Shown here: positions 18 to 14,138 of the stretch, piece by piece | Layout of the letters: each line of letters begins with the position of its first letter | Position numbering within the stretch: the stretch's first letter is position 1 | Assembly (NCBI RefSeq): GCF_025717065.2 | Contig: NZ_JAOVZO020000015.1 | Coordinates: 1 to 64,000 of the forward strand | Reading direction: 5' to 3' | DNA from: Tahibacter soli | GTDB lineage: Bacteria > Pseudomonadota > Gammaproteobacteria > Xanthomonadales > Rhodanobacteraceae | DNA length: 64,000 bases | Notes under the pieces: model-generated | The model's input: only the letters and a program-made list of their open reading frames with translations | Told to the model about the DNA's origin: nothing | Databases searched by the model: none | Position numbers and translations under genes: made by a program

Positions 18-242
18 GTGTTCGGGTTGGCCGAAAAGATCGATGCGAAGGCCGAACAGGTGCGCGAGACGGTCGCGCGTTCACGCGCGGCAGTCGGTCC
101 GAGTCCGGCGCGGCTGGCCGAAAGCCCGACAGAGGCGCACCTGCGTTGGCTGCGGCAGTTGTTCGAACACGGGCGTTTGAGCGACGACGAGTATCAGAAC
201 GCCGTCGCCGAAGCGAAATCCAAGACGGGACAAAACGTATGA
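18..242 (+). CDS. Small phage protein with SHOCT-like C-terminus, possibly 5'-partial
   Basis: A 74-residue product is read from a GTG at 18, but the frame stays open to the left edge, so the true start may be upstream. The first half is charged and probably helical. The last 30 residues (LRWLRQLFEHGRLSDDEYQ) resemble the SHOCT short C-terminal domain, which often ends small phage or membrane-associated proteins. The stop overlaps the ATG of the mor-like gene (gtATGA), so the two are translationally coupled. No specific function is recognised. Confidence 0.5.
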   Translation: MFGLAEKIDAKAEQVRETVARSRAAVGPSPARLAESPTEAHLRWLRQLFEHGRLSDDEYQNAVAEAKSKTGQNV

Positions 243-655
243 GCGGACAAGGCGAGATGTTCGACGCGTTGACGTGTGACCCTCTCGATTTGATCGAGCG
301 TGGCGGCGAGGTGATCGCCGATAAGTCCCGCTGGCCGCAACGGCTAGTCGACTTGTACGACGTTTTGTTCGCGTACGCACGGAAAACTGGCGCCGACGCA
401 GAAACCGCAGCACGCGACGCGAGCGCGCGTGCCGTGCTCATCGCGGACTATCTTGGCGGGGCCGTCGTCTACTTGCCGCGCGGCGATGCGATGCGCAAGG
501 CTGTTCGCGATAGCGAAGCATACAGAAGGCATGATGGTCGGAACACCAACGTGCTAGCGCGCGAGTATGGAATGACGACAACAAAGTTCTATGAGCTGCT
601 CGCCAGGGAACGGAAAAGACGTCTTCGGAAGATGCAGGGGCGGCTCTTCCAGTAG
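239..655 (+). CDS. mor: Mor/C-type transcription activator
   Basis: This 138-residue protein matches the Mor family, the Mu middle/late transcription activators. The C-terminal helix-turn-helix region is recognisable: GRNTNVLAREYGMTTTKFYE followed by a basic tail. The central part (VVYLPRGDAMRK) corresponds to the beta-strand dimerisation segment. The start at 239 is chosen because it overlaps the preceding stop and gives the usual family length; an in-frame extension upstream has no family similarity. Family members bind dyad sites and activate late promoters. Two dyad-containing promoters found at 2885 and 12906 are the obvious targets (inference). Confidence 0.85.
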   Translation: MSGQGEMFDALTCDPLDLIERGGEVIADKSRWPQRLVDLYDVLFAYARKTGADAETAARDASARAVLIADYLGGAVVYLPRGDAMRKAVRDSEAYRRHDGRNTNVLAREYGMTTTKFYELLARERKRRLRKMQGRLFQ

Positions 656-1332: not shown

Positions 1333-2686
1333 ACGCTATTACCATCTCTTCGAGAGCGGCAATTAAATCACGGAGTGGATCAAGTCGATCCAAATTGGAG
1401 AGGGATTTTCTAAGCGCATTGATCTCCTGGCGGCTCTGATCGTCGAATCGCTTCGCTTTTGAAACCTTCGCAAATACATTCAAAGCAATTCTATTTAGGT
1501 ACTCGTTCCTATAACCCGGAGCTTCAAACACTTCTGCCAGTTGAAAGTCAATAGATCGACGAGAATAGTCATGCGCATGCTTCGCAATCCCGTCCTCCAT
1601 AGACATAACGTAGCAATTGCCGTCCGGAATCTGCGCAACGATTTGTGGCGAGTGCGTAGCGATCAAAAAGTGACAGCCGCGGCGCATGCTAAATGCATGA
1701 AAGAGAAGATCAATGTATCGCTCTTGCCAAGCAGGATGCAGGCATACCTCGGGCTCGTCAATGCAAACGAGTGCGTTCTCTGTTATCTGACTACTAATTC
1801 CAAGTAGGCCCAGAATAACTGCTTGCTCACCCGAACTAGTTTCACTGAGCTTCACCGGCACGAGATCCTTGTAGAGCAGCACATGCCTCAACCTCATCAG
1901 TCCGGAACAAGCAAGCAAAACTATATCCTTTTGTGCATCCAATGCACCGGACACGCCGGTAATCCCACCGGGGCCAATAGAAATCTCAGTGGGGCCGCGA
2001 GGCAAACGCAAGCGCATTCGATACAAAGCCTCGGTTACTTCTTCAAGCTTGTGCCTATCGGTGTCGAGCTGGCGAAGGCCGAAGAGATGGTCAGCGAAGA
2101 ACATCATGGGTCTTGGCCGAATTAGGTAATCGGCGAGGAATCGATCCGGATGCGGCGACATCAAGCCGTGAAGAATTTCTTCGTTTGGAGCCGAGAATAT
2201 GACACTCATGGAGCCATCGTACTGTAAAAATTGCAGTGTCCGTATTACGGCCTCCGCTTGTTCGGGGCTTTTGTCTATGGTTGCCAGTAGTGTCGAAACG
2301 ATTCGCGACATATATGCGATGCCCAAATTTGCGCTGGGCAGTCCGCGCAAGCCTAGGTAGCTATAGTGCTCTAGGAAGGAATCTCGACGCAGGAGCGGAA
2401 ATCGATCGAATGGGCTAGTTGAAACGCAAATAATGCGAGTAGGTGCGCGCTCGACATCCAAATACTCTTGGGAATCAGGCTTCAAGTGCGCACGATCTTC
2501 GCGCACGAACCATCCATCGTCTGTGATGTTGTGCAAAAGGCACGTGACCACGGATCGCAGCAGCCGACTTTTGCCTGTGCCATTTCGGCCGACAATTATC
2601 GTATATGTGTTAGCGCCTATTTGGCGCGCGTCGCCTGAATGCACGAATTCATAGGTCCGCAATCGAGAATTGTATGCTCGCAGCAT
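1325..2686 (-). CDS. AAA/ABC-type ATPase, Septu PtuA-like
   Basis: The 453-residue protein has Walker A GRNGTGKS at residues 33-40, a signature-like SSGEQ in the segment before Walker B, Walker B LVCIDEPEVCLHP at 306-318, and an H-switch in FLIATHSPQ. This is the OLD/SMC-like ATPase type found in Septu PtuA and related systems. The ATG at 2686 is preferred because AAAGGA lies 6 nt upstream; an ATG at 2701 is also possible, and a longer in-frame extension has no family features. The gene is followed directly, with overlap, by the HNH gene. A promoter for the pair should lie within 2687-2880. In Septu the ATPase is thought to sense infection and control the nuclease (family knowledge). Confidence 0.75.
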   Translation of the reverse strand: MLRAYNSRLRTYEFVHSGDARQIGANTYTIIVGRNGTGKSRLLRSVVTCLLHNITDDGWFVREDRAHLKPDSQEYLDVERAPTRIICVSTSPFDRFPLLRRDSFLEHYSYLGLRGLPSANLGIAYMSRIVSTLLATIDKSPEQAEAVIRTLQFLQYDGSMSVIFSAPNEEILHGLMSPHPDRFLADYLIRPRPMMFFADHLFGLRQLDTDRHKLEEVTEALYRMRLRLPRGPTEISIGPGGITGVSGALDAQKDIVLLACSGLMRLRHVLLYKDLVPVKLSETSSGEQAVILGLLGISSQITENALVCIDEPEVCLHPAWQERYIDLLFHAFSMRRGCHFLIATHSPQIVAQIPDGNCYVMSMEDGIAKHAHDYSRRSIDFQLAEVFEAPGYRNEYLNRIALNVFAKVSKAKRFDDQSRQEINALRKSLSNLDRLDPLRDLIAALEEMVIAYG

Positions 2687-2884
2687 TTTCGATCCTTTCA
2701 TGCACAGACTAGGTAAAGGAGAATAAGCCCTCGAACAGCTAATACGCTCTACTGAGCGAATCCGAGCCGGTGGTGTACGAGGCTTATAATCGAATCCCGC
2801 TAAAATTTCGACTATCAAGCTTCATTTCCGCCTGTCCGGCCGCCGCATTCTTTTGATGGGCGAATAAGGGGCGCGCCATCATGA

Positions 2885-2930
2885 TGGCACGACAGTGAAA
2901 CTCCTCCCATAGTCCACACCGCGCACTCTA
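2885..2930 (+). promoter_or_regulatory. Late promoter, Plys-like, with activator dyad
   Basis: Contains an imperfect dyad TGGCAC-N4-GTGAAA (2885-2900), then 28 nt ending in GCACTCTA (to 2930). The same arrangement with identical spacing recurs at 12906-12951 upstream of the protease gene. In Mu the C protein activates Plys and PI at just these two places. It lies about 90 nt upstream of the holin start. The rest of 2687-3020 holds the start region of the divergent ATPase gene and no other gene. Confidence 0.6.
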
Positions 2931-3020
2931 GCACTGCCGGGTAGCTCCCCCGTCCCGGCGTCGCGCGGGCGGCGGCCCTCCTCAAGACTCCTACGCCGCC
3001 CGCGCCTTTTTGGAGGCGCG

Positions 3021-3320
3021 ATGAATCCCAAGACCCGGTTACCGGCGATGCTGCGCGACAAGCTGCGCGCAAGCCCGCTGCTCGTTCTGTTTGTCGTGAC
3101 GTTCGCGATCACGGCGTTTCTCAACCCCGCGAAGGTCGGCCTGACTGTCTGGGGCATCGCCAAGCTCGGCATGGGCGGCTACGTCGGTTACTGGATTGAC
3201 CGGCTGATCTTTCCTTACGCCCGTCCGCACGATCTGATTGGCGTGGAAGCCGGCACGTCGTGGAAGCGCCGCGCCGCGATCGTGTCGGCGACGATCCTCG
3301 CTGCGGCGTTCACGCCGTGA
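3021..3320 (+). CDS. Putative phage holin
   Basis: A 99-residue membrane protein with hydrophobic segments at roughly 19-35, 41-60 and 84-97, and a basic N-terminus. It matches the small 2/3-TM holins of Mu-like and related prophages, including a VGLTVWGIAKLGMGGYVGYW-type segment. A strong GGAGG lies 5 nt before the ATG. The stop overlaps the GTG start of the endolysin gene. By position it should make the inner-membrane lesion that starts lysis. Confidence 0.7.
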   Translation: MNPKTRLPAMLRDKLRASPLLVLFVVTFAITAFLNPAKVGLTVWGIAKLGMGGYVGYWIDRLIFPYARPHDLIGVEAGTSWKRRAAIVSATILAAAFTP

Positions 3321-3931
3321 AGCGCCTGCTCGTCGCTATCACGCTCGTCGCAGCGAGCGCCCTTGCTGCCGCCGCGTCGCCGGTGCGCATCCCCGAAGCA
3401 TCGGCACGCTACCGGTTCGCACTCGAACGCGAAGCCGTGGCGCGATTCGGCCTCGACGCCCCGATCGCGCGCATCGCCGCGCAGATTCACGCCGAAAGCA
3501 CCTGGGAGCCGACCGCCGAAAGTGCCTACGCACAGGGCCTGTCGCAGTTCACGCCGCCCACGGCCGCATGGCTGCCGACGGTATGCCCCGAAGTCGGCCC
3601 GCCCGATCCGTGGGATGCCGGCTGGTCGCTGCGCGCGATCACCTGTTACGACGCATGGCTGTTGCAGCGCGTCGACGGCGCGACCGTCTGTGACGAATGG
3701 GCGTTCGCATTGTCCGGCTACAACGGCGGTTTGACGTGGGTTTATCGTGATCGTGCACGAGCATCGGCTAAGGGAGCCGACCCGGCTCGCTGGTTCGATC
3801 ACGTCGAGAAGCAATCCGGGCGCGGCGCCGCGCACATGGTCGAGAACCGCTCCTACGTCGCTCGCATTCTGAGGCGGTTCGAACCGGCCTACATCGCCGC
3901 CGGCTGGCCCGGCGAGGCGGCGTGTCCATGA
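3317..3931 (+). CDS. Endolysin, lytic transglycosylase with signal sequence
   Basis: A 204-residue exported SLT-type transglycosylase. The first 22 residues form a signal or signal-arrest sequence (KRLLVAITLVAASALAAAA). The probable catalytic Glu is in HAESTWEP, followed by AYAQGLSQFTPPTAAW and SGYNGG, the usual lysozyme-like core motifs. The GTG at 3317 is chosen because it overlaps the holin stop (GTGA) and begins the signal sequence; an upstream in-frame start would lie inside the holin gene. A signal sequence suggests Sec-dependent export, so the holin may act as a pinholin or simply time lysis (inference). Confidence 0.8.
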   Translation: MKRLLVAITLVAASALAAAASPVRIPEASARYRFALEREAVARFGLDAPIARIAAQIHAESTWEPTAESAYAQGLSQFTPPTAAWLPTVCPEVGPPDPWDAGWSLRAITCYDAWLLQRVDGATVCDEWAFALSGYNGGLTWVYRDRARASAKGADPARWFDHVEKQSGRGAAHMVENRSYVARILRRFEPAYIAAGWPGEAACP

Positions 3932-4368
3932 AGCTCCCGACGCTTTCACAACCTCTCGTTTCCTACGCGCTGGCGGCGGCGGTCGTCGCCGCCGGCTTCG
4001 CGGGCGGTTGGACCGCGCGCGGCTGGCGCGAAGCCAAGGCCGACTTGAAGGCCGTCCGCGCCGACGCCGCCGCGATCGAGAAGGAAACCGCTCGCCGCCA
4101 AATCATCGGAGCCCGCTATGAGCAAGAGCGCGAAGCCGTCGACCAGTTCTACCGCGCGCTGCCCTATTGGTGGCCTCGCGTCGTGGCTGATCGTCCTGAC
4201 CTTGAGCACGTCGATATCGGCCCTGTCGGGTTGTGCGTCTGGAACCGCTGGAACGCGGGACCGGGCAGCGTTCACACCTGCGCTGCTGGTGAAGGCACCG
4301 ACGACGTTGCCGGCGGCCAAGAGCGCGGCGCTGCCGGCCCTGATGGCGAACCACGCGGAGACCGCTGA
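3928..4368 (+). CDS. Inner-membrane spanin, Rz-like
   Basis: A 146-residue protein with one N-terminal membrane anchor (about residues 11-32), then a charged helical stretch ending near ARYEQEREAVDQFYRALPYW. This is the i-spanin layout. The ATG overlaps the endolysin stop (ATGA). A second frame inside it, starting at 4118, encodes the lipoprotein partner. The C-terminal residues after that overlap look like an out-of-frame shadow of the partner gene, as is usual in Rz/Rz1 pairs. Confidence 0.7.
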   Translation: MKLPTLSQPLVSYALAAAVVAAGFAGGWTARGWREAKADLKAVRADAAAIEKETARRQIIGARYEQEREAVDQFYRALPYWWPRVVADRPDLEHVDIGPVGLCVWNRWNAGPGSVHTCAAGEGTDDVAGGQERGAAGPDGEPRGDR

Positions 4369-4483
4369 GCAATACCACAAGGTCGCGCGGCGCCTGAACG
4401 CGCTGATCGACGAAGTCACCACGCCGGAAGAACCGGCCGCGCGCTGGTGGCAGGTTTGGCGCCGCGCGTGGTGGCGGCGATGA
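4118..4483 (+). CDS. Outer-membrane lipoprotein spanin, Rz1-like
   Basis: A 121-residue lipoprotein read in another frame within the Rz-like gene and running 115 nt beyond it. A hydrophobic signal ends in the lipobox LSGC (Cys at about residue 39). Rz1 proteins are small, Pro/Ala-containing lipoproteins that pair with Rz to fuse inner and outer membranes at the end of lysis. The signal is longer than usual, so translation may start at an internal codon. The stop overlaps the next ATG. Confidence 0.65.
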   Translation: MSKSAKPSTSSTARCPIGGLASWLIVLTLSTSISALSGCASGTAGTRDRAAFTPALLVKAPTTLPAAKSAALPALMANHAETAEQYHKVARRLNALIDEVTTPEEPAARWWQVWRRAWWRR

Positions 4484-4671
4484 AGGCACACAAGCCCGCC
4501 GACCTGATCGACAAATGGAACAACGACGCGCGCGACCTCGAACGCGACGCGGGCCGTGCAACAACAACCCCTGATCAAAAACGCCTGCTCAACATGCACG
4601 CGCGCGTGAAGCGTGCCTGCGCCATCGAGCTGCGCGCACTGCTGGAAAGAGGAAAAGATGGACGAAGCTGA
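4480..4671 (+). CDS. Hypothetical phage protein
   Basis: A 63-residue basic, probably helical protein of unknown function. Its ATG overlaps the Rz1 stop (ATGA) and its end overlaps the next gene by 14 nt, so it belongs to the lysis-to-head transcript. No motif is recognised. The tight coupling on both sides is the main evidence that it is real. Confidence 0.55.
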   Translation: MKAHKPADLIDKWNNDARDLERDAGRATTTPDQKRLLNMHARVKRACAIELRALLERGKDGRS

Positions 4672-4891
4672 CCGCGCGCAGGCGGCCGAAGAACGCGACC
4701 GCGCAATCGCATTGCAGATGACGCTCGCGCGCATGCCGCCGAAGTCGCCGCGCACCGCCGACGACGCCTGCACCGAATGCGGCGAGCCGATCGAAGCGGA
4801 GCGTTTGCGCGTGCTCGGCGCGACGGATTATTGCGCGAGCTGCGCACACGAGAGCGCACGGCGTACGCGAGGCTTCGCATGGTCTCGCTAG
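4658..4891 (+). CDS. DksA/TraR-type C4 zinc-finger protein
   Basis: A 77-residue protein with a C4 zinc finger CTECGEPIEAERL...CASC near residues 40-65, preceded by a charged helix. This is the TraR/DksA short form common in Mu-like phages just before the terminase genes. Short forms such as TraR can bind the RNA polymerase secondary channel (family knowledge). The ATG at 4658 follows GAAAGAGGAAAAG, a good ribosome site, and gives the normal TraR length. Confidence 0.75.
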   Translation: MDEADRAQAAEERDRAIALQMTLARMPPKSPRTADDACTECGEPIEAERLRVLGATDYCASCAHESARRTRGFAWSR

Positions 4892-5280
4892 ATTCGCTCG
4901 ACAACGTATTGCGATCGGTGCAGATCGCGGTGTTGCTCGGCAGCGTCGGCGTGAACGTCTGGCTGTGGGTGCGCGGTCGCAACGACAAAGCGCTGGACGC
5001 GCTCAAGGCCAAGGACGCGGAGCTGAGTCGCCAGCTCGGCGACACGGCCAATACGACGACCACGCAGCTTGTCGCGCTGACGGCCAACGTCGCCGCGCTC
5101 GGCACTCGCGTCGCCGTGCTCGAAACGACCGTGCGCCACATGCCGACGCACAACGACCTGCAAGCAATCCAGCGCGAGCTGCGCGACATCAACGGCACAG
5201 TGTCGGCGGTATCCGAGCGCAGCGAAGCGACCTTGGAAATGGTGCGCACGATCCAAGCGCATCTGTTGGAGTCCAAATGA
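4879..5280 (+). CDS. DUF2730-family membrane protein
   Basis: A 133-residue protein with an N-terminal membrane segment (about 13-32, VQIAVLLGSVGVNVWLWV) followed by a long coiled-coil-like region. Size, topology and position between TraR-like and ArsR-like genes match the DUF2730 family of Mu-like phages, whose role is unknown. The ATG overlaps the previous gene by 13 nt and its stop overlaps the next start. Confidence 0.65.
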   Translation: MVSLDSLDNVLRSVQIAVLLGSVGVNVWLWVRGRNDKALDALKAKDAELSRQLGDTANTTTTQLVALTANVAALGTRVAVLETTVRHMPTHNDLQAIQRELRDINGTVSAVSERSEATLEMVRTIQAHLLESK

Positions 5281-5576
5281 GCACAAAGACTTTCGAAGAA
5301 CGTCTGACCGAAGATCGCCGGCTCGTGATCCTGCGCGTCCTGAACGAACAGATCGAGTACCGCGCGAACAGCAGCGTCATCACGGTCGCGTTGAATCACT
5401 TCGGTCATAGCATCAGCCGCGATCAGGTGAAGACAGAACTGCACTGGCTCGCCGAACAACGCCTGCTCACGATCGACGATATCGGCCCGGTGATCGTTGC
5501 GACGCTCGGCGAGCGCGGCCAGGACGTCGCGCGCGGCCGTGCAATCGTGCCGGGCGTATCGCGGCCGGGCAGCTGA
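5277..5576 (+). CDS. VpaChn25_0724-family phage protein, winged-helix-like
   Basis: A 99-residue protein beginning STKTFEERLTEDRRLVILR and ending in RGRAIVPGVSRP. These ends are hallmarks of the VpaChn25_0724 family of Mu-like phages, which resembles ArsR-type winged helices (HSISRDQVKTELHWLAEQ as the recognition segment). The ATG overlaps the preceding stop. In Mu this position corresponds to the gp26 area. DNA binding is an inference. Confidence 0.7.
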   Translation: MSTKTFEERLTEDRRLVILRVLNEQIEYRANSSVITVALNHFGHSISRDQVKTELHWLAEQRLLTIDDIGPVIVATLGERGQDVARGRAIVPGVSRPGS

Positions 5577-5577
5577 C

Positions 5578-6123
5578 GTGCCGCGCAAGTCCGCGATTTC
5601 GCGTCTCCCGGCCGAGGCACGCACCTACATCGAAAAGCTGCTCCGCAACGACCAACTGACGCTCGATGAAATGCTCGCGGACATCCGCGCGCGGTTCCCG
5701 GCGGCGGAGCCGAGTCGTAGCAGCCTGCACCGCTACCAAGTCAGCTTGAAAGAGCTGACCGGCCGCATGCGCGATATCGACACCGTCGCGCGCGCCGTCG
5801 TCGGCGAACTCGGCGAGAGTCCCGACGAGAAGGCCGGCGCGCTGTTGTGCCAGGCCATCACGACGTTGGCGACGCACGCCGCGCTGTCGGCGAGCGAGCG
5901 CGACGACGTATCGATCGACGAAGTGCGCAAGCTCGCGCGCGCCGCCAAGGACACGATCGCGGCGCGCACGCTGAGCCTCAAAGAACGACAGGCGATCGAA
6001 CAGGCCGCGCGCGAGAAGTTGCAGCGCGAGCAAGCCGAGCGCCTGGACGAAACCGCACGCGCCCAAGGCATGGACGACGCGCAGGTGCGCTTCTGGCGCG
6101 AGAAGGTCTTGGGGATTCAGTGA
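5578..6123 (+). CDS. DUF3486, Mu gp27-like, probable small terminase
   Basis: A 181-residue helical protein. Its N-terminus (PRKSAISRLPAEARTYIEKL) and the SSLHRYQ motif match DUF3486, the Mu gp27 family placed directly before the large terminase and thought to act as the small terminase. The GTG at 5578 follows the previous stop by one base; the family usually starts with this basic R-K-S-x-I segment. The stop overlaps the terminase ATG (TGATG). Confidence 0.8.
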   Translation: MPRKSAISRLPAEARTYIEKLLRNDQLTLDEMLADIRARFPAAEPSRSSLHRYQVSLKELTGRMRDIDTVARAVVGELGESPDEKAGALLCQAITTLATHAALSASERDDVSIDEVRKLARAAKDTIAARTLSLKERQAIEQAAREKLQREQAERLDETARAQGMDDAQVRFWREKVLGIQ

Positions 6124-7778
6124 TGGTCGACGTAACCAAGCCCCTTGCCAGTACGGTACGCGTCGTCGAGTGGGACGAACTGCCGCCGCGTGCGCGCGAG
6201 ATTCCGAACGGCTTCGATCCGCTCGCGGACGGCATTCTGATGCGGCATCAGGTGCAGTGCTTGGCGATCCGCGCCTCGATCCTCGTTGTCCCCAAGGGGC
6301 GACGCACCGGCATGACGTTCGCGTTTGCCTTGAACAAGACGATCACCGCCGCGTCGCGCAAGTCGGCCGGCGGCGATAACGTCTATTACATCGGCGACAC
6401 CAAGGAGAAGGGTCTAGAGTTCGTCGGCTACTGCGCCAAGTTCGCGCGCGTGATCGCGCAGGCGCAGGGACAAGGCAATTCGCGGATCGAAGAATTCCTG
6501 TTCGAAGATCAGGACGACGACGGCCGCACCAAGTACATCACGGCCTATCGCATCCGCTTTGCGTCGGGTTTCCAGATCACCGCGTTGTCGTCGCGGCCGG
6601 CGAACATTCGCGGTCTGCAAGGTCACGTCATCATCGACGAAGCGGCGTTCCATCCGGACGTGCAAGGCGTGCTCGACGCTGCTACGGCGCTCCTGATCTG
6701 GGGCGGCGAAATCGTCATCATCAGTTCGCACAACGGCATTCGGAACCCGTTCAATCTGTTGATCAAGGACATCGAGAACGGATGCTACGGGGATGACGCC
6801 GTCGTCTTTCGGGTGACCTTCGACGATGCCGTCGGCAATGGTCTGTACGAGCGCGTTTGCCTCATCAAAGGCTGGACGCCGAGCGTCGACGGCAAGCGCG
6901 CGTGGTACGAGAGAAACCGCAACGGCTATGGCGCGCGCAAAGCGGCGATGCGCGAAGAGCTGGACGCGATTCCGCGCGATGGTGGTGGCCGGTGCATTCC
7001 GGGCATCTGGATCGAGAATGCGATGCCGGAGGTTCGCCCGGTGCTGCGCCTCGCGCTCGACAGCCCGTTCCAAGCCAAGCCGAATCACGAGCGTGAATCG
7101 CTGATCGGCGAATGGATCGAACGCGAGTTGAAGCCGCTGTTTCGGCTGTTCGATCCACGCTTCAAGACCGTGTTTGGCGAAGACTTCGCGCGGCATCGCG
7201 ACTTCTCGGCGATCGTGCCGATGCAGATCACGCACACGCTGTCGCGCAATGTGCCGTTCGTGGTCGAGCTGCACAACGTGCCGACGCGGCAGCAGGAACA
7301 GATTCTGTGGGCGATCGTCGACGCGCTGCCGAATCGCTGCGGCGGCGCGATGGACGCGACCGGCGCCGGCCAGACCTTGGCCGAATACACGGGTGACAAG
7401 TTTGGCCGACCGCATATCGCGGAAGTCGTGCTGTCGCGCGCGTGGTACGGCGCCTGGATGCCCAAGCTCGTGCAGGCGTTCGAAGACGGCGTGATTTTTA
7501 TGCCACGCGACGACGGCGTCGCCGACGACTTGCGCGCGATCGAAGACGTCGACGGCATTCCGATGGTGTCGGCGATCCGTCGCGAGGACATCAAAGACCC
7601 CGACCTCATGCGGCACGGCGATGTCGCCATCGCAACGGCGCTCGCGTACTTCGCGAGCCTGAATTTGTCGGCGCAAATCGCCTTCATTCCGGTGCCGGCG
7701 CGTTCGCGCGGCTTCGACAACGTCATCGGCAACGACGTCGACGACGACTTCTACATCGCGGAACCTTCCACATGGTAG
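6123..7778 (+). CDS. Terminase large subunit, Mu gp28-like
   Basis: A 551-residue packaging motor. An N-terminal ATPase domain carries a degenerate Walker A near VPKGRRTGMT and a Walker B at VIIDEAAFHPD. The C-terminal half is an RNase H-like nuclease with FGEDFARHRDFSAIVP as the first acidic strand and MDATGAGQ as the second. Length and order match Mu gp28. It should package DNA headful from the integrated copy with the DUF3486 protein and the DUF935 portal. Confidence 0.9.
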   Translation: MVDVTKPLASTVRVVEWDELPPRAREIPNGFDPLADGILMRHQVQCLAIRASILVVPKGRRTGMTFAFALNKTITAASRKSAGGDNVYYIGDTKEKGLEFVGYCAKFARVIAQAQGQGNSRIEEFLFEDQDDDGRTKYITAYRIRFASGFQITALSSRPANIRGLQGHVIIDEAAFHPDVQGVLDAATALLIWGGEIVIISSHNGIRNPFNLLIKDIENGCYGDDAVVFRVTFDDAVGNGLYERVCLIKGWTPSVDGKRAWYERNRNGYGARKAAMREELDAIPRDGGGRCIPGIWIENAMPEVRPVLRLALDSPFQAKPNHERESLIGEWIERELKPLFRLFDPRFKTVFGEDFARHRDFSAIVPMQITHTLSRNVPFVVELHNVPTRQQEQILWAIVDALPNRCGGAMDATGAGQTLAEYTGDKFGRPHIAEVVLSRAWYGAWMPKLVQAFEDGVIFMPRDDGVADDLRAIEDVDGIPMVSAIRREDIKDPDLMRHGDVAIATALAYFASLNLSAQIAFIPVPARSRGFDNVIGNDVDDDFYIAEPSTW

Positions 7779-9346
7779 CTATCGTCGACCGCTACGGCCG
7801 GCCGTTCGAACAACGCACGCTCGACGAACCGCAGACCGCGAGCATGGTGCATCTGCAACGCGAGTTCGCCGGACACCCGACGCGCGGCCTGACGCCGTCG
7901 AAGCTCGCGCGCATCCTTGACGACGCCGAGCAAGGCGACATCCGCGCGCAGTACGAAGCATTCGAAGACATGGAGGAGAAAGACGGCCACGTCGCCTCCG
8001 AGATGGGGAAGCGCCGCCGAGCCGTCGCGGGCCTTGAATGGTCGATCGAACCTCCGTTGAACCCGACGGCCGCCGAATCCACCGCCGCCGCGCGCGTGGC
8101 CGAACTGGTCGCCGGCATCGCCGGGTGGCAGACGATGCTGTTCGATGCGACCGACGCGATCGGCAAGGGTTTCGCCTGCCTGGAAATCGAGTGGCGCCGT
8201 ACCGGCCGCAGCTGGCTGCCGCTCGCGATCGATCATCGGCCGCAGACCTGGTTCCAGCTCCACCGCGGCAGTCGGCAAGAGATACGCCTGCGCGACCACA
8301 GCGCGGACGGCGCGCCGTTGAACCCGTTCGGGTGGATCACGCACGTACATCGCGCCAAGTCCGGCTACATCGAGCGCGCGGCGCTGATGCGCGTGCTGAT
8401 CTGGCCGTTCGTGTTCAAGAACTACTCGGTCGGCGATCTGGCGGAATTCCTCGAGATTTACGGTATCCCGATGCGCCTGGGTAAGTACCCGTCGGGGGCG
8501 ACCGAGGCGGACAAGCGCACCTTGATGCGCGCGCTCGTGCACATCGGCCACAACGCCGCCGGCATCATCCCGGCCGGCATGGAAGTCGACTTCCACGACA
8601 TCGCCAACGGCGACGCCAAGGCGTTCGAAGTCATGCTGGACTGGTGCGAGCGCACGCAGAGCAAGGCAATTCTGGGTGGCACGCTGACCAGTCAGGCCGA
8701 CCGGGGATCGAACACCAACGCGCTCGGCAACGTACACAACGACGTGCGTATCGATCTGCGCGATTCCGACGCGTTGCAGGTGGCCGCGACGGTGACGCGT
8801 GATTTGATCTATCCGGTCGCGGTGCTGAACGGGCTCGCGCCCGACAGTCCCGAACGTTCGCCGCGCCTCGTCTTCAATACGCGGCAGCCGGAAGACTTGA
8901 AGCTGTATGCCGATGCGCTGCCGAAGCTCGTACAGATGGGAATGGACGTGCCTGTCGATTGGGCGCGGCAGCAGCTGCGCGTGCCGAAGCCCAAGGACGG
9001 CGAAGCCGTCCTGACGTTCGCAAAGGCGGCACCGGCGACGGCAACCGCAGCGGCGACGGCGCAGGTTCGCTTCACCGCGCAGCCGGAGCGCGCCGACGCG
9101 ATCACCGACACGTTGTCCGAGCTGCTGCAGGACGCGGCCGATCCGATCGTTGCCGAATGGGTCGATCAGATCCGGGGCATGCTCGCGTCGGCATCGTCGC
9201 TGGAAGAATTTCGCGATGCGCTGCTCGCGCAGTTTGAAGAGCTGCCGACCGACCAGTTGCAGACGCTCATGCGTCAGGCGCTCATGGGTGCCGATCTGGC
9301 GGGTCGATCGGTCGTGAAGTCGCAATCGTCCGGCCGGGGTGTCTGA
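7772..9346 (+). CDS. Portal protein, DUF935 (Mu gp29-like)
   Basis: A 524-residue portal protein of the DUF935 family. Characteristic parts are the N-terminal VDRYGRPF segment, SEMGKRRRAVAGLEW, the FLEIYGIPMRLGKYPSG stretch, and TSQADRGSNTNALGNVHNDV. The ATG overlaps the terminase stop by 7 nt. It forms the ring through which DNA enters the head and to which the gpF-like protein binds. Confidence 0.9.
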   Translation: MVAIVDRYGRPFEQRTLDEPQTASMVHLQREFAGHPTRGLTPSKLARILDDAEQGDIRAQYEAFEDMEEKDGHVASEMGKRRRAVAGLEWSIEPPLNPTAAESTAAARVAELVAGIAGWQTMLFDATDAIGKGFACLEIEWRRTGRSWLPLAIDHRPQTWFQLHRGSRQEIRLRDHSADGAPLNPFGWITHVHRAKSGYIERAALMRVLIWPFVFKNYSVGDLAEFLEIYGIPMRLGKYPSGATEADKRTLMRALVHIGHNAAGIIPAGMEVDFHDIANGDAKAFEVMLDWCERTQSKAILGGTLTSQADRGSNTNALGNVHNDVRIDLRDSDALQVAATVTRDLIYPVAVLNGLAPDSPERSPRLVFNTRQPEDLKLYADALPKLVQMGMDVPVDWARQQLRVPKPKDGEAVLTFAKAAPATATAAATAQVRFTAQPERADAITDTLSELLQDAADPIVAEWVDQIRGMLASASSLEEFRDALLAQFEELPTDQLQTLMRQALMGADLAGRSVVKSQSSGRGV

Positions 9347-10644
9347 TGGGGTCGCCGAGCCGACCCGGAACGACGTTTAAAACCGCTTCAAAACGACCGC
9401 TGCTGCGTTCGAACCCTCAAGGGGGTATCCGAGTCGCAGCCAGGGGGTTCCAGGCGGTTCTGGCGGGCGATTCGCCGACCCCGAAAATTCGGGGCAACTT
9501 CCGCACGATGCCCGAAGCCGTTCGATACTTCGGCGAGAAGGCGAACGTACCGTCGGCGACGTGGCGCGACCTGTGGCAAGGCCAGCATGCGCGCGCCTTT
9601 ACGGTTGCCGGCGCGATGAAGGCCGATCTGCTGGCCGATCTGCGGCAGGCGGTCGACGGTGCGATCCGCGACGGCGAAAGTCTTGGCAAGTTCCGCCAGC
9701 GCTTCGACGACATTGTCGCGCGGCACGGCTGGGCGCACACCGGCTCGCGTAACTGGCGCACGAAGGTCATCTACGACACGAACGTCCGCACGTCGTTCAT
9801 GGCCGGCAAATACGCGCAGCTCACCGACCCGGACATGCTCGCGCGACATCCGTATTGGGAGTATCGCCACTTCACGCGCGACAACCCGCGTCTGGAACAC
9901 AAGGCTTGGAGCGGCCTGATCCTGCGACACGATGATCCGTGGTGGCAGGTGCATTTCCCGCCGAACGGCTGGGGGTGCCATTGCGACGTGCTGCCGGCGA
10001 CGGCGCGACGTCTGCGCGAACTCGGCAAGGACGGGCCGGATACCGCGCCGGCCGGCGTGGGAGATGTTCGGCCCGAATGGCAGTACAACGTCGGCGAGGC
10101 GGCGTGGGGCCGTCCGATTGCGGATACCGCGCTGCGCGACTTGACCGATGGCGGCTGGTCGCCCCCCGGCACAGCCCCAGCTGGAGGCAATGCGTTGCCG
10201 GCGCTACCGGTCGACACCGCTGTCGCCTCGCCGCTGCCCGCGACTTCCGACCCGACATCTATAAGGAACGTTTGGCGCGACCTCTACGGCGAACAATCCG
10301 TACTGGCCGACGCCAACGGCGGCCGAGTCGTATTGAGCGATCGTGTGGTCGAGCATTGGCTAGACGCACCGGCCGAACGGCTCGGCGGGCGCGAACGGTT
10401 CCTGCCGCTGCTGCGCGAGCTGATCGAGCAGCCGGCGGAAATCTGGACGAACTGGATCGTCAACGCACGCGGCCGGTACGAGCTGCGGCGGCGCTTCGTG
10501 AAGGCGGTGACGCTCGACGACAACCAGCCGGTCGAGCTAGTCGCCGAGTCGACAGCCGGTGGCGTCTGGCTGCGCCTAGCCTTTGATGCCGACACCGTCG
10601 CGTTGGCGCGGCAAGGTCTGCTCGTATGGAAGCGCAGCGAATGA
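9346..10644 (+). CDS. Minor head protein gpF-like with C-terminal PBECR-like nuclease domain
   Basis: A 432-residue protein. The first two-thirds is the SPP1 gp7/Mu gpF head-morphogenesis domain: SATWRDLWQGQHARAFTVAG, TKVIYDTNVRTSF, and the C/H-rich end HFPPNGWGCHC. After a Pro/Ala linker near residues 280-300, residues about 305-432 resemble the PBECR2 barnase/EndoU/colicin-like nuclease domain (RERFLPLLRELIEQPAEIW, YELRRRFVKAV). Such domains are attached to capsid proteins of several Mu-like phages; ejected with the DNA they might act in the host (inference). The start overlaps the portal stop. Confidence 0.8.
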   Translation: MGSPSRPGTTFKTASKRPLLRSNPQGGIRVAARGFQAVLAGDSPTPKIRGNFRTMPEAVRYFGEKANVPSATWRDLWQGQHARAFTVAGAMKADLLADLRQAVDGAIRDGESLGKFRQRFDDIVARHGWAHTGSRNWRTKVIYDTNVRTSFMAGKYAQLTDPDMLARHPYWEYRHFTRDNPRLEHKAWSGLILRHDDPWWQVHFPPNGWGCHCDVLPATARRLRELGKDGPDTAPAGVGDVRPEWQYNVGEAAWGRPIADTALRDLTDGGWSPPGTAPAGGNALPALPVDTAVASPLPATSDPTSIRNVWRDLYGEQSVLADANGGRVVLSDRVVEHWLDAPAERLGGRERFLPLLRELIEQPAEIWTNWIVNARGRYELRRRFVKAVTLDDNQPVELVAESTAGGVWLRLAFDADTVALARQGLLVWKRSE

Positions 10645-11096
10645 GCGGCGGTTTCGTCATGGAGTGGGAGGATGCCGCCGCTCGCGTCAGGTTGACCGAG
10701 TTGATCAAGCGTGGGACGAACACGCGACCGCTGATGCTGGAAATCGGCTACGAGCTTGTGCGGTCGACGTTGCAACGGTTTGACGATGAAGTCGATCCGG
10801 ACGGCAACCCCTGGGTGGAGCTGAAGCCGGCGACGCTGGCGCGGAAGAAAGGCAGCAAGAAGCTCATAGAGGATGGGTTCTTGCGTGGCGGGATCGCAGT
10901 GCTTGAGGCGACTGATGGCTTTGTGGAAATCGGCGCAGACCGCGAGTACGCTGCAATTCATCAGTTTGGCGGAAGCTCGAATATGGCGCCAGGTGCCGCC
11001 GCAATTTTGCCTAGACCGTACTTGGGGATAAGCAGCGAGGACGCACGTCGGGTCAGCAGAATCATCGTTGAGAACCTTGTGCAAGCTTCACTTTAG
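10641..11096 (+). CDS. Virion morphogenesis protein, Mu gpG-like
   Basis: A 151-residue protein of the phage virion morphogenesis/tail completion family. The middle segment VRSTLQRFDDEVDPDGNPW with LKPATLARKKGS, and the late DREYAAIHQFGG, are family signatures. The ATG at 10641 overlaps the gpF stop; an ATG 15 nt upstream is less likely. It is the last structural gene before the accessory insertion. Base composition drops across this gene. Confidence 0.8.
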   Translation: MSGGFVMEWEDAAARVRLTELIKRGTNTRPLMLEIGYELVRSTLQRFDDEVDPDGNPWVELKPATLARKKGSKKLIEDGFLRGGIAVLEATDGFVEIGADREYAAIHQFGGSSNMAPGAAAILPRPYLGISSEDARRVSRIIVENLVQASL

Positions 11097-11115
11097 TTTT
11101 GCTGGGAGCGAGAGC

Positions 11116-11688
11116 ATGCAGCCTATCGAGCAATACAAGCGCAAAGTGGACGCGTCGGACCGAGTTGTGAACAGAATGCTGGTTCCGATGACCACGAGTC
11201 TTAGCAGGGCGGCGCTTGATTTCGCTGGCTGGCTCGTGGCAGGCGCTGGGGCGGCGATCGGCGTTATCGTGGCAAACATCGACAAGCTGGAAAAGTACGT
11301 TCTCGTGAGCGGGATAAAGACATCTGCATATATCTACCTCGGTGCCCTTGCACTTCACGGAATTCAACGATATCTGTCGATGTTTACTACGGTCGTCGCA
11401 GCGTTAGATGTCGACAAAGCGCTAGCCGAATCCGAAGTCGAGGGGGACGGCAGCCCATCGGATCTGTCGATGAGCTATCAGGCGCGTGTGATGCAGCGAC
11501 TCGACAGCGCCTTGTTCTGGCCGGCTCGATGGTACTCGCGGAGGAAGCTTCGCAACCCTAATGCACAAAACGGGAATGCGCTAGCCGACAAGAGCTTTCG
11601 TCGGGCCCAGATAGAAGCTGCCTTGATGACAGCGCAAGTTCCTATTGTTCTACTTGCGCTCTTCTGGCTCGTTCAAGCGATAAAGTGA
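11116..11688 (+). CDS. Hypothetical membrane protein, prophage cargo
   Basis: A 190-residue protein with predicted membrane segments at about 34-54, 69-97 and 168-189, and a soluble loop between the second and third. Start chosen at the ATG after GGGAGCGAGAG. No family is recognised. It is the first of three consecutive AT-richer genes encoding membrane proteins between the gpG-like gene and the second late promoter, a place where Mu has no conserved gene. Superinfection exclusion or lysogenic conversion is possible but unproven. Confidence 0.6.
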   Translation: MQPIEQYKRKVDASDRVVNRMLVPMTTSLSRAALDFAGWLVAGAGAAIGVIVANIDKLEKYVLVSGIKTSAYIYLGALALHGIQRYLSMFTTVVAALDVDKALAESEVEGDGSPSDLSMSYQARVMQRLDSALFWPARWYSRRKLRNPNAQNGNALADKSFRRAQIEAALMTAQVPIVLLALFWLVQAIK

Positions 11689-11712
11689 AAGGCGCATTTC
11701 TGAGGTAAGCAC

Positions 11713-12147
11713 ATGGCTAGAGTCGAACTGAGACGCAAATTGCTGGAGAGGATTGCTGCCGGTGAAAAGTTCTTCCAGCTGGATGGCCAGACCGAGGAAG
11801 AGCAGCAGCGGTTTGACGAAGAGGTCGAGTGCTTGAGCTATCTGAGTCGCAAGGGATATGTGAGTGGATTCAAGGCGCAAGGGCAGACTACCCGTGCGAC
11901 TGGGGTCTACGAGCATGCTGTTGTGCGAGGACTGACCGAGGAAGGTCGTCAGGCCCTTAGCAATCCCCCGAACAGGTTTTCGACGGGAAAAATTGCGACA
12001 CTTCTACTTTTGTTGGTAACGGCGGGCGTGGGCATTGTTTGGGGGGTTACCGGCGACGGCCGATGGGAACCCCTCTATGCGCTTCTCGGACTTGTACCTT
12101 TGCTGGGGGCGGCGATCTATGCTCTTCGTGACAGAAGGGACATCTAA
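11713..12147 (+). CDS. Hypothetical protein, soluble N-domain plus two TM segments
   Basis: A 144-residue protein. The first 85 residues look like a helical, possibly winged-helix-type domain (EVECLSYLSRKGYVSGF, VVRGLTEEGRQAL). Two membrane segments follow near 93-111 and 119-137, with a short charged tail. A TGAGGTAAG element precedes the ATG. It lies 24 nt after the previous cargo gene. Similar domain layouts are seen in uncharacterised bacterial proteins. No function is assigned. Confidence 0.6.
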   Translation: MARVELRRKLLERIAAGEKFFQLDGQTEEEQQRFDEEVECLSYLSRKGYVSGFKAQGQTTRATGVYEHAVVRGLTEEGRQALSNPPNRFSTGKIATLLLLLVTAGVGIVWGVTGDGRWEPLYALLGLVPLLGAAIYALRDRRDI

Positions 12148-12184
12148 ATGAACGCTCCCTTCCAAACAATTGGGGGAACCTTTT

Positions 12185-12805
12185 GTGAAGATGACAAAGA
12201 GAATGTATTCGCGGTTCACATGGCGACAATCTGGCGACCGCATCGCTTTTCTGGTCGGATGGGGGCTCGCATTGCTTGTGGGCGGAGGGGCTGTCTTGTA
12301 TGCGATGGTCACCCTTTCTGACAACATTGTGAAGCTAGCCGTGGCTGTACTCGCGGCTGCCGCGGGTATAGCTACAGCAATCGTTGCGCACTCGTTAAAC
12401 CGAGTCCGCGAAATTGAGGCGGAACAACGTAGGCGCAAGGAAGAAAACTACAAGTCCATCCTTGCCCTTGTCGGTCAATATGTGCGCAACCCCAAAGGTC
12501 ACCGCGATGCAATGGCCTCGGCAAACTTGGGTTCTTGGATCGTTGGATCGAAAGAGGTTGTCAGGCTGACGATCGAGTTTCTGGACCCATATTCGCAAAT
12601 TTACTTCGTCTTCCGTGATGAGTTCCACCAATTTCCGCCCGAGCCCGTGTCACTGCGTGATCCAGCAGAAATCTTGCACGATCTTCTATTGCAAATGAGG
12701 CTAGAACTTGGCCTTGAGTGGTTCAGATCTGATGACCGGGCTGTTCGTGCGCTGTTTCCACCGCCGGAACCAGACTCCGCCGGTTCTTTTAAACCTCGCA
12801 ATTGA
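12185..12805 (+). CDS. Hypothetical membrane protein, prophage cargo
   Basis: A 206-residue protein with two adjacent membrane segments (about 20-43 and 50-69), a highly charged helix (REIEAEQRRRKEENYK) and a soluble C-terminal domain rich in aromatic residues. The GTG at 12185 lies 6 nt after GGGGGAA and is preferred; an ATG follows two codons later. This two-TM-plus-cytoplasmic-domain plan resembles membrane effectors in some defence modules, but no catalytic motif is visible. It ends about 100 nt before the PI-like promoter. Confidence 0.6.
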   Translation: MKMTKRMYSRFTWRQSGDRIAFLVGWGLALLVGGGAVLYAMVTLSDNIVKLAVAVLAAAAGIATAIVAHSLNRVREIEAEQRRRKEENYKSILALVGQYVRNPKGHRDAMASANLGSWIVGSKEVVRLTIEFLDPYSQIYFVFRDEFHQFPPEPVSLRDPAEILHDLLLQMRLELGLEWFRSDDRAVRALFPPPEPDSAGSFKPRN

Positions 12806-12905
12806 ATCACCGCTTTTCCACAAGTTGCTCGCCTGCACAAGCGCCACACTTGAACGTGGATTTCCTTGGTCATCCGGTTTGTACTGCGAGCGCCTCGGGT
12901 GCCGA

Positions 12906-12951
12906 TTTCACAGCAGTGAAACTCTCTCCCTAATTCCAAAGTAGCACTCTA
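12906..12951 (+). promoter_or_regulatory. Late promoter, PI-like, with perfect activator dyad
   Basis: A perfect dyad TTTCAC-AGCA-GTGAAA (12906-12921) is followed by CT and 28 nt ending in GCACTCTA (12944-12951). The right half-site, the 28-nt spacing and the GCACTCTA box are identical to the copy at 2885-2930. Its place before the protease gene equals Mu PI. The Mor/C-like protein at 239-655 is the likely activator (inference). The remainder of 12806-13010 has no gene. Confidence 0.65.
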
Positions 12952-13010
12952 CGCCGGCAATGACCGGCGCAGACCTCACTCCCCACGCAATCGAACGACC
13001 GACCCGCAGG

Positions 13011-14138
13011 ATGGGGGTCGCGTCTTCCCTCCCGAGCATCGCCGTACTCACGGCCGTGACACCGGGTATCGCGATCGCCGCCTGTGCGTTCGCATTGCCC
13101 ACGCTCGGCGATTCCCCGCTCGTCGCAATCCAGCTCACCCCCGCCGGATCGTTCCGGCCGCGCGACGGCCGCGAGATGTCCGTCGACGCGTGGCATATCG
13201 ATGCCGCCAAGGCTGCGCGGGTCATTGCGGCTTTCCAGCAACTGGCGACACCGCCGGTACTCGACTACGAACACCAGACCTTGCTGGCCGAAGAAAACGG
13301 CCAGCCGGCGCCGGCCGCCGGCTGGTTTCGCAATCTCGTCTGGCGCGAAGGCGAAGGCTTGTTCGGTGACGTCGAGCTGACGGCGCGCGCTCGCCAGTAC
13401 ATCGCCGACGGCGAATACCGCTACTTCTCTCCCGTCATCCGCTACGACCCGAAGACGGGCGACGTGCTCGCGTTCGTGATGGGCGCGCTGACGAACAACC
13501 CGGCGATTGACGGCATGCAGGCCGTCGCGTTGCGCGCCGCCGCGAGCTTTCGCCTCCAACCCCCGAAGGAAACCCCCATGGATAAACTGCTCGCGGCGGT
13601 CATCGCCGCGCTGTCGCTGCACGCCAACGCGACGGAAGACGAAGCTGCGACGGCGCTCAAGGCCAAGCATGTGCCGGCCGACCGCGTGCGTACCGCGCTG
13701 GGCCTCGGCGCCGACGCCGACGGCGAAGCCGTCGTCGCCGCATGCACGTCGCTGCGCCAGAAGGCCAATGCGACCAAGCCCGACCCGGCCGAGTACGTGC
13801 CGCGCGCGGCCGTCGACGAGCTGCGCACGGAAATCGCCTCCCTCAAGTCCGAGAACACCGAACGCGATGTCGACGCGCTCGTCAAAGACGCGCTGACCGA
13901 CGGCCGCCTGCTGCCCGCGCTCGAATCGTGGGCGCGCGACCTCGGCAAGTCCGACGTTGCGCAGCTTCGCGCCTACCTCAAGACGGCCCAGCCGATCGCG
14001 GCGCTTTCCGGCACGCAGACGCGCGGCATTGCGCCGAACGCCGATCCCAACGCGCACGGCCTCAACGCCGACGAGCTGGCGATCTGCCGCGCCGCCGGCA
14101 TCGCGCCGGCCGACTTCGCCAAGAACCGCCGGGCCTGA
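13011..14138 (+). CDS. Prohead protease, Mu gpI-like
   Basis: A 375-residue protease of the Mu I family. Recognisable blocks are QLTPAGSFRPRDGR, VLDYEHQTLLAEENG (the YEHQT active region), APAAGWFRNLVWREGEGLFG, EYRYFSPVIRYDP and ALTNNPAIDGM. An in-frame ATG at 12960 exists but would leave almost no leader after the promoter, so 13011 is preferred. The C-terminal half from Met190 is also made separately as scaffold, as in Mu I/Z. The protease should cleave the scaffold during prohead maturation. Confidence 0.85.
   Translation: MGVASSLPSIAVLTAVTPGIAIAACAFALPTLGDSPLVAIQLTPAGSFRPRDGREMSVDAWHIDAAKAARVIAAFQQLATPPVLDYEHQTLLAEENGQPAPAAGWFRNLVWREGEGLFGDVELTARARQYIADGEYRYFSPVIRYDPKTGDVLAFVMGALTNNPAIDGMQAVALRAAASFRLQPPKETPMDKLLAAVIAALSLHANATEDEAATALKAKHVPADRVRTALGLGADADGEAVVAACTSLRQKANATKPDPAEYVPRAAVDELRTEIASLKSENTERDVDALVKDALTDGRLLPALESWARDLGKSDVAQLRAYLKTAQPIAALSGTQTRGIAPNADPNAHGLNADELAICRAAGIAPADFAKNRRA
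13578..14138 (+). CDS. Scaffold protein from internal in-frame start, Mu gpZ-like
   Basis: An internal ATG at 13578 is preceded by GAAGGAAACCCCC, a good ribosome site inside the protease gene. It would give a 186-residue helical, acidic protein (DKLLAAVIAALSLHANATED...) identical to the protease C-terminus. Mu makes its scaffold Z in just this way from gene I. The change from globular protease to low-complexity helix just before this codon supports it. Confidence 0.65.
   Translation: MDKLLAAVIAALSLHANATEDEAATALKAKHVPADRVRTALGLGADADGEAVVAACTSLRQKANATKPDPAEYVPRAAVDELRTEIASLKSENTERDVDALVKDALTDGRLLPALESWARDLGKSDVAQLRAYLKTAQPIAALSGTQTRGIAPNADPNAHGLNADELAICRAAGIAPADFAKNRRA

Follow-up and report, generated by a model that had tools for sequence, protein, structure and literature searches.

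Which sequences switch on the late operons of the Mu-like prophage at the start of Tahibacter soli contig NZ_JAOVZO020000015.1, and which protein acts on them? The stretch analysed here (positions 1 to 64,000 of this contig, assembly GCF_025717065.2; hereafter the window) carries a two-block element, GTGAAACT-N20-GCACTCTA, once ahead of the lysis genes and once ahead of the head genes. Judging from sequence comparisons, the two elements are very probably the Plys and PI late promoters, of Mor/C type, of a Mu-like prophage with B3/D3112-type relatives, and would be fired by the activator encoded at 239-655. The following elements, with distances in nucleotides (nt), were delimited:

2885-2900, plus strand: Plys operator dyad TGGCAC-GACA-GTGAAA, centre 2892.5
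2924-2929, plus strand: Plys −10 element, CACTCT, with the dyad centre 31.5 nt upstream and a predicted start near 2936
12906-12921, plus strand: PI operator, perfect dyad TTTCAC-AGCA-GTGAAA, centre 12913.5
12945-12950, plus strand: PI −10 element, CACTCT, with the dyad centre 31.5 nt upstream and a predicted start near 12957

The two-block pattern had exactly two matches in the 64,000-nt window, at 2895-2930 and 12916-12951, and the count expected in window shuffles was 0. When up to three mismatches were allowed, 0.17 matches were expected, and one of 100 window shuffles gave two. The two-copy observation is thereby confirmed, both copies lying at the coordinates given in an earlier note on this DNA with exactly 20 nt between the boxes. 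The 16 box bases were identical in both copies, the 20-nt spacer agreed at only 8 positions, and the 40-nt flanks showed background identity (12/40 upstream and 9/40 downstream); the pair is therefore no recent duplication. What is conserved between the Plys and PI copies is two short blocks and the distance between them. The dyad alone, with up to three mismatches, was not above chance in the window (12 matches against 11.1 expected), so the statistical weight rests on the arm and the box at fixed spacing.

The perfect TTTCAC-N4-GTGAAA dyad described earlier for the PI copy was seen at 12906-12921. In both copies the dyad centre lies 31.5 nt upstream of CACTCT, a poor −10 hexamer that retains only A-11 and T-7 and is also the PI hexamer of B3, L048, and L049. 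No sigma-70-like promoter pair was found in the two 500-nt regions 2600-3100 and 12600-13100. The usual position of a −10 hexamer is −12 to −7. The Mor dimer site, according to the available parts of two papers, consists of two inverted repeats of 5 base pairs (bp) within a 16-bp element centred at −43.5, which substitutes for the −35 element, and the related C protein binds related dyads at Mu Plys, PI, PP, and Pmom (PMC4390567, PMC4287176). Together, the two positions give an expected distance of 31.5 nt from the centre to the −10 element. The Mor/C-type features present in the window are, accordingly, the 16-bp inverted-repeat element, the 31.5-nt spacing, the lack of a sigma-70-like consensus pair, and a Mor-family gene in the same phage. 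By this geometry, the GCACTCTA box contains the −10 element and belongs outside the operator. The earlier note had taken the whole repeat as the operator of the Mor/C-like protein at 239-655; the assignment to this protein gains support from its PF08765 domain, the Mor-like spacing, and the operator-Mor correlation in relatives described below, and the operator itself has to be narrowed to the dyad.

The genes around the two promoters are as follows:

239-655, plus strand: Mor/C-family transcription activator gene (PF08765, E 9.3e-23; PHROG 532 "late transcriptional activator", E 6.2e-28)
3021-3320, plus strand: holin, first gene of the lysis operon (PHROG 1528, PF13272), preceded by GGAGG
3260-4368, plus strand: open reading frame (ORF) of an SLT endolysin (3260-3931) and Rz-like spanin (3922-4368), PHROG/Pfam profile matches
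12960-14138, plus strand: Mu-like I protease/scaffold gene, which opens the head operon (PF10123, E 4e-109)

The positions are those of Plys and PI, as had been proposed: holin, endolysin, and spanin follow the first copy, and the Mu I protease, with the gpT major head gene after it, follows the second. The nearest solved structures to the 239-655 protein in PDB were Mu C (9l0x, 9vw8) and Mu Mor (1rr7), and this protein is likely the one that binds both dyads. Two PF08765 genes were found in the whole genome, one per prophage: 239-655 and one in a remnant on contig C20. Mu uses a Mor-to-C relay; because the genome shows two Mor-type genes, one per prophage, the window activator may act directly, without such a relay. 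One Mor-family gene was seen in the window prophage, whose early half lies outside the contig: the contig starts within the prophage, immediately ahead of the activator gene, so that the early region is elsewhere or unassembled. Short peptide patterns of the window's Mor retrieved no relatives from the viral-contig or genome-contig collections, and a DNA similarity search with 2700-3100 against phage records returned none.

In the proposed mechanism, a dimer of the 239-655 protein would bind the 16-bp dyad centred at about −43.5, replace the −35 element, and assist sigma-70 RNA polymerase at the poor −10 hexamer CACTCT. Transcription would start near 2936 and 12957, giving a leader of about 85 nt with GGAGG before the holin gene and an I mRNA almost without a leader. 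Both operons, lysis/packaging and head, would thus be turned on in the late phase after induction.

A scan of related prophages for the same pattern had been suggested earlier; the layout did recur in many related phages, but the recognition sequences differed between them. For gaps chosen by hand, 44-mers from the lysis gap and the gene I gap of the same phage were compared: 7 of 16 loci scored above every one of 60 shuffles, three (LPB1, L048, and L049) tied with the best shuffle, and six fell below it. Among the last, a shared dyad was recognised by eye in L046, L064, and L071 and none in MP38, L061, and L066. On these comparisons, a shared element is present at the lysis and gene I gaps of many relatives, its sequence varying from phage to phage. 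Fc02 carries its operator three times, ahead of the lysis genes, gene I, and the tape-measure gene; the copy just upstream of the tape-measure gene was also found in B3 and JBD25, and none was found before the window's tape-measure gene. For 29 promoters, the anchors were hand-picked and the centres then set by symmetry (the L065 anchors are one base out of register). A hexamer of the form nAnnnT lay 30.5-32.5 nt downstream of the centre in 25 of these promoters, from 12 of 14 groups.

A larger set was collected by I-protein alignment from viral contigs (the best 80 of the matches listed) and from 35 of 398 genomes. The 114 loci, earlier ones included, were reduced to 85 distinct starts by dropping those that lacked an ATG, had less than 80 nt of upstream sequence, or reached 80% identity. 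This set overlaps the first: L012 is the L059 locus, and L077, L097, and L128 represent the Fc02, MP38, and LPB1 promoter types. The start codon or centre is probably wrong in L098 and L139, yet both were kept in the −10/symmetry and second-copy counts. In 61 distinct PI regions, the symmetry profile had its peaks 31.5 and 30.5 nt ahead of the hexamer (3.59 and 3.56 of 9 pairs); the mean across all centres was 2.21 pairs (standard deviation 0.31). The locus's own operator was repeated with a spaced −10 element in 24 of the 33 loci having at least 7.5 kilobases (kb) upstream (p ≤ 0.05, 100 shuffled operators). The best second copy lay 7.3-9.5 kb upstream in 21 of the 24, where annotated relatives have lysis genes; in L087, L113, and L129 it lay 5.1-5.8 kb downstream, and the second-best copy 7.9-8.6 kb upstream. 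Ten of the 24 had a copy 5-7 kb downstream that differed at no more than seven positions; the p-values cover the best copy only.

The same loci bear on the start of gene I. The distance from nAnnnT to the first in-frame ATG was 6 nt in 39 of the 85 loci and 7 nt in 13, and no other distance from 0 to 44 nt exceeded nine loci. When another in-frame ATG within 30 nt was allowed, 67 of the 85 had a −10 element 6-7 nt before the gene I ATG; the start codon is therefore predicted at +1 or +2. Upstream of gene I, a 4-mer of Shine-Dalgarno type was present in 2 of 61 loci; of 148 downstream starts used for comparison (mechanically called ATG ORFs of at least 100 amino acids after gene I), 106 had such a 4-mer and 10 had nAnnnT at 6-7 nt. 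In the window, the gene I ATG lies 9 nt after the −10 element, at about +4 of the predicted transcript, with a leader of about 3 nt and no evident ribosome site. These data suggest that the head-operon mRNA is leaderless, starting at or within a few nucleotides of the first codon of gene I. Mu differs in having AGGA just before gene I, whereas the I ATG of the window group stands at about +1 to +4. In the D3112 record (L073, 19793-19918), the annotated gene I start is downstream of the promoter-proximal ATG, whose frame closes there; in LPB1, unlike D3112, gene I is annotated from the promoter-proximal ATG, and the difference may be one of sequence or of annotation. A short inverted repeat (e.g., GCCGCC..GGCGGC) was noticed by eye around the −10 element right before the ATG in L045, L047-L049, L067, and L071.

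A PF08765 gene was found in 26 of 30 related virus records, which may be fragments: 25 carried exactly one, one 75-kb record carried two, and four carried none. Similarity of the helix-turn-helix (HTH) part of Mor correlated with operator similarity at rho 0.56 (n = 25, Mantel p = 0.0002; for all 30, rho 0.39, p = 0.0002), and rho was 0.54 after removal of gene I similarity. In the set of 30, Mor proteins more than 90% identical were collapsed, the C20 Mor was excluded, and for L061 there was no operator. For n = 25, L085, L098, L139, L140, L144, and L132 were removed as well, and L097, a locus lacking its own second copy, was retained. For the window, LPB1, Fc02, B3, L064, L067, and L071, the operators were typed by hand.

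Several observations weigh against the assignment of both elements to one Mor/C-type activator. The Plys dyad is imperfect, with the right arm kept and a left arm TGGCAC that forms 4 of 6 pairs. Of the 25 fitting promoters, 8 hold another nAnnnT elsewhere at 20-50 nt; in D3112 and L067 (four promoters), the automatically chosen centre was misplaced (36-39 nt), and 31.5-32.5 nt were obtained only after the centre was placed by hand on GAA-N4-TTC. There was no significant second operator copy in 9 of the 33 loci and no −10 element at the expected place in 18 of the 85 PI starts. When Mu Plys and PI were scanned with the strict geometry, no candidate reached 5 of 8 pairs. The Mor N-terminus correlated with the operator equally (0.61, against 0.56 for the HTH part), and gene I correlated weakly (0.21, p = 0.018, n = 25); the operator is therefore tied to the activator lineage, not to the recognition helix or single residues. 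In the available part of PMC9936078, the Fc02 gene clusters are called sequential, with the second leading the first at 20 min and the first and third in step, and section 3.2 gives start points for cluster one but not for two and three. Given this timing, one shared activator is by itself an insufficient explanation.

Besides the two window copies, one further exact copy was found in the rest of the genome, on the minus strand at C20:180636-180671, upstream of a holin gene. It sits in a second, degraded Mu-like prophage (about 179.5-185.3 kb; L009/L010). The C20 operator, TGGCAC-TAAA-GTGAAA, has the arms of the window Plys and a different loop; further upstream the DNA is unrelated (20/60 identical) although the arms are kept. 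This remnant lysis promoter might respond to the activator of the window prophage. The C20 lysis cassette is truncated (93% identity), and the C20 Mor is separated from its upstream part by an apparent insertion sequence, so called because its set of ORF sizes recurs in L009. Four other places in the genome matched only with three mismatches, where a backward-read control pattern gave 12 matches. With up to two mismatches the pattern matched 50 of 233 family genomes, and the backward-read control also matched many, which makes this count uninformative. The exact pattern had a single match in viral contigs, in L008, an AT-rich contig without Mu-like lysis context, and this was taken as chance.

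Other readings of the repeats were considered. It is very unlikely that they are operators of another phage regulator, e.g., a lysogeny repressor that keeps both late operons silent in the prophage state. Repressor sites, too, are typically perfect dyads, and the link to the activator is drawn from sequence; however, in most promoters the dyad is tied to a −10 element at 30.5-32.5 nt, which fits an activator replacing the −35 element, operator similarity tracks the Mor-family protein, and the elements stand at late operons with no sigma-70-like promoter to repress. Recombination or moron-insertion boundaries are very unlikely. Accessory genes do stand immediately before each copy (PtuA/PtuB, 682-2698, and the ORFan 12170-12805, respectively), and homology between the genome's two prophages stops at the Plys operator; against this, the boxes alone are conserved while the spacer has diverged, D3112 and Fc02 have an element at the same operon heads despite different genes there, and recombination needs no fixed spacing to a −10 element and an ATG. 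Chance, or recent local duplication without function, is hardly credible and is disfavoured by the comparative data: the pattern is short and the dyad alone is not above chance, but 0 copies were expected, spacer and flanks have diverged, a third genomic copy stands at another lysis cassette, and the architecture recurs in other phages.

The accessory genes were annotated as well. A Septu-type defence pair on the minus strand (682-2698), comprising a PtuB HNH protein and a PtuA ATPase (PADLOC, E 1.6e-72 and 4.2e-122), separates the activator gene from the lysis promoter. The ORF 12170-12805 (211 amino acids), upstream of PI, had no PHROG, Pfam, or PADLOC match. It is close to the slot that the anti-CRISPR AcrF2 (orf30, between G and I) occupies in D3112, and by this analogy it is a candidate counter-defence gene.

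Among known systems, Mu Pm with Mor, as described in the available parts of the literature, shares with the window promoters the 16-bp dyad with 5-bp arms at −43.5, the missing −35 element, the presence of a −10 element, and a Mor-family activator. It differs in operator sequence and in serving the middle operon, whereas the window sites serve the late operons (lysis and I). The Pm geometry is taken from the papers; our own scan of the Pm region gave two candidates and was not interpretable. The Mu promoters Plys, PI, PP, and Pmom are alike in two of the four operon positions and in their dyad-binding activator of the same family, C being the closest solved structure, but comprise four sites under C against two copies in the window. 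Pseudomonas B3/Fc02-like and D3112-like phages share the Plys plus PI architecture (D3112 via the hand-placed centre) and differ in their operators, which are of the TTTTCG..CGAAAA and GAA-N4-TTC types. Promoters p1-p6 of D3112-like phages, predicted by program, are described as agreeing with sites put forward for Mu and D3112 (PMC4378225, in part), and pC1, pC2, and pE of Fc02 were likewise predicted by program (PMC9936078, in part). RNA-seq of Fc02 resolved three forward-strand gene clusters, the first beginning at the holin-endolysin genes and the second mainly structural (same part of PMC9936078). No shared late operator is described in the available parts of PMC4378225 or PMC9936078, and a literature search gave no description of a late operator or of a leaderless gene I in B3/D3112-type phages.

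The Mor/C-type late promoter is known in kind; its details are confirmed in the window, and the comparison widens it to a pattern shared by many phages. We lean towards a large group of Mu-like phages in which Mu's Mor-to-C relay has been reduced to a single step: one Mor-family activator, acting on a palindromic operator private to each phage, would directly fire two or three late promoters, and the head operon would be leaderless, its first codon being the transcription start. This would provide a sequence rule for locating late promoters and matching activator-operator pairs in B3/D3112-type transposable phages, whose Fc02 RNA-seq report (PMC9936078) describes, in its available part, gene clusters and no late-promoter operator. 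It would also offer about 25 activator-operator pairs of one family for the study of specificity change, and it predicts a leaderless capsid-gene mRNA across very different phages, which is checkable with existing RNA-seq data.

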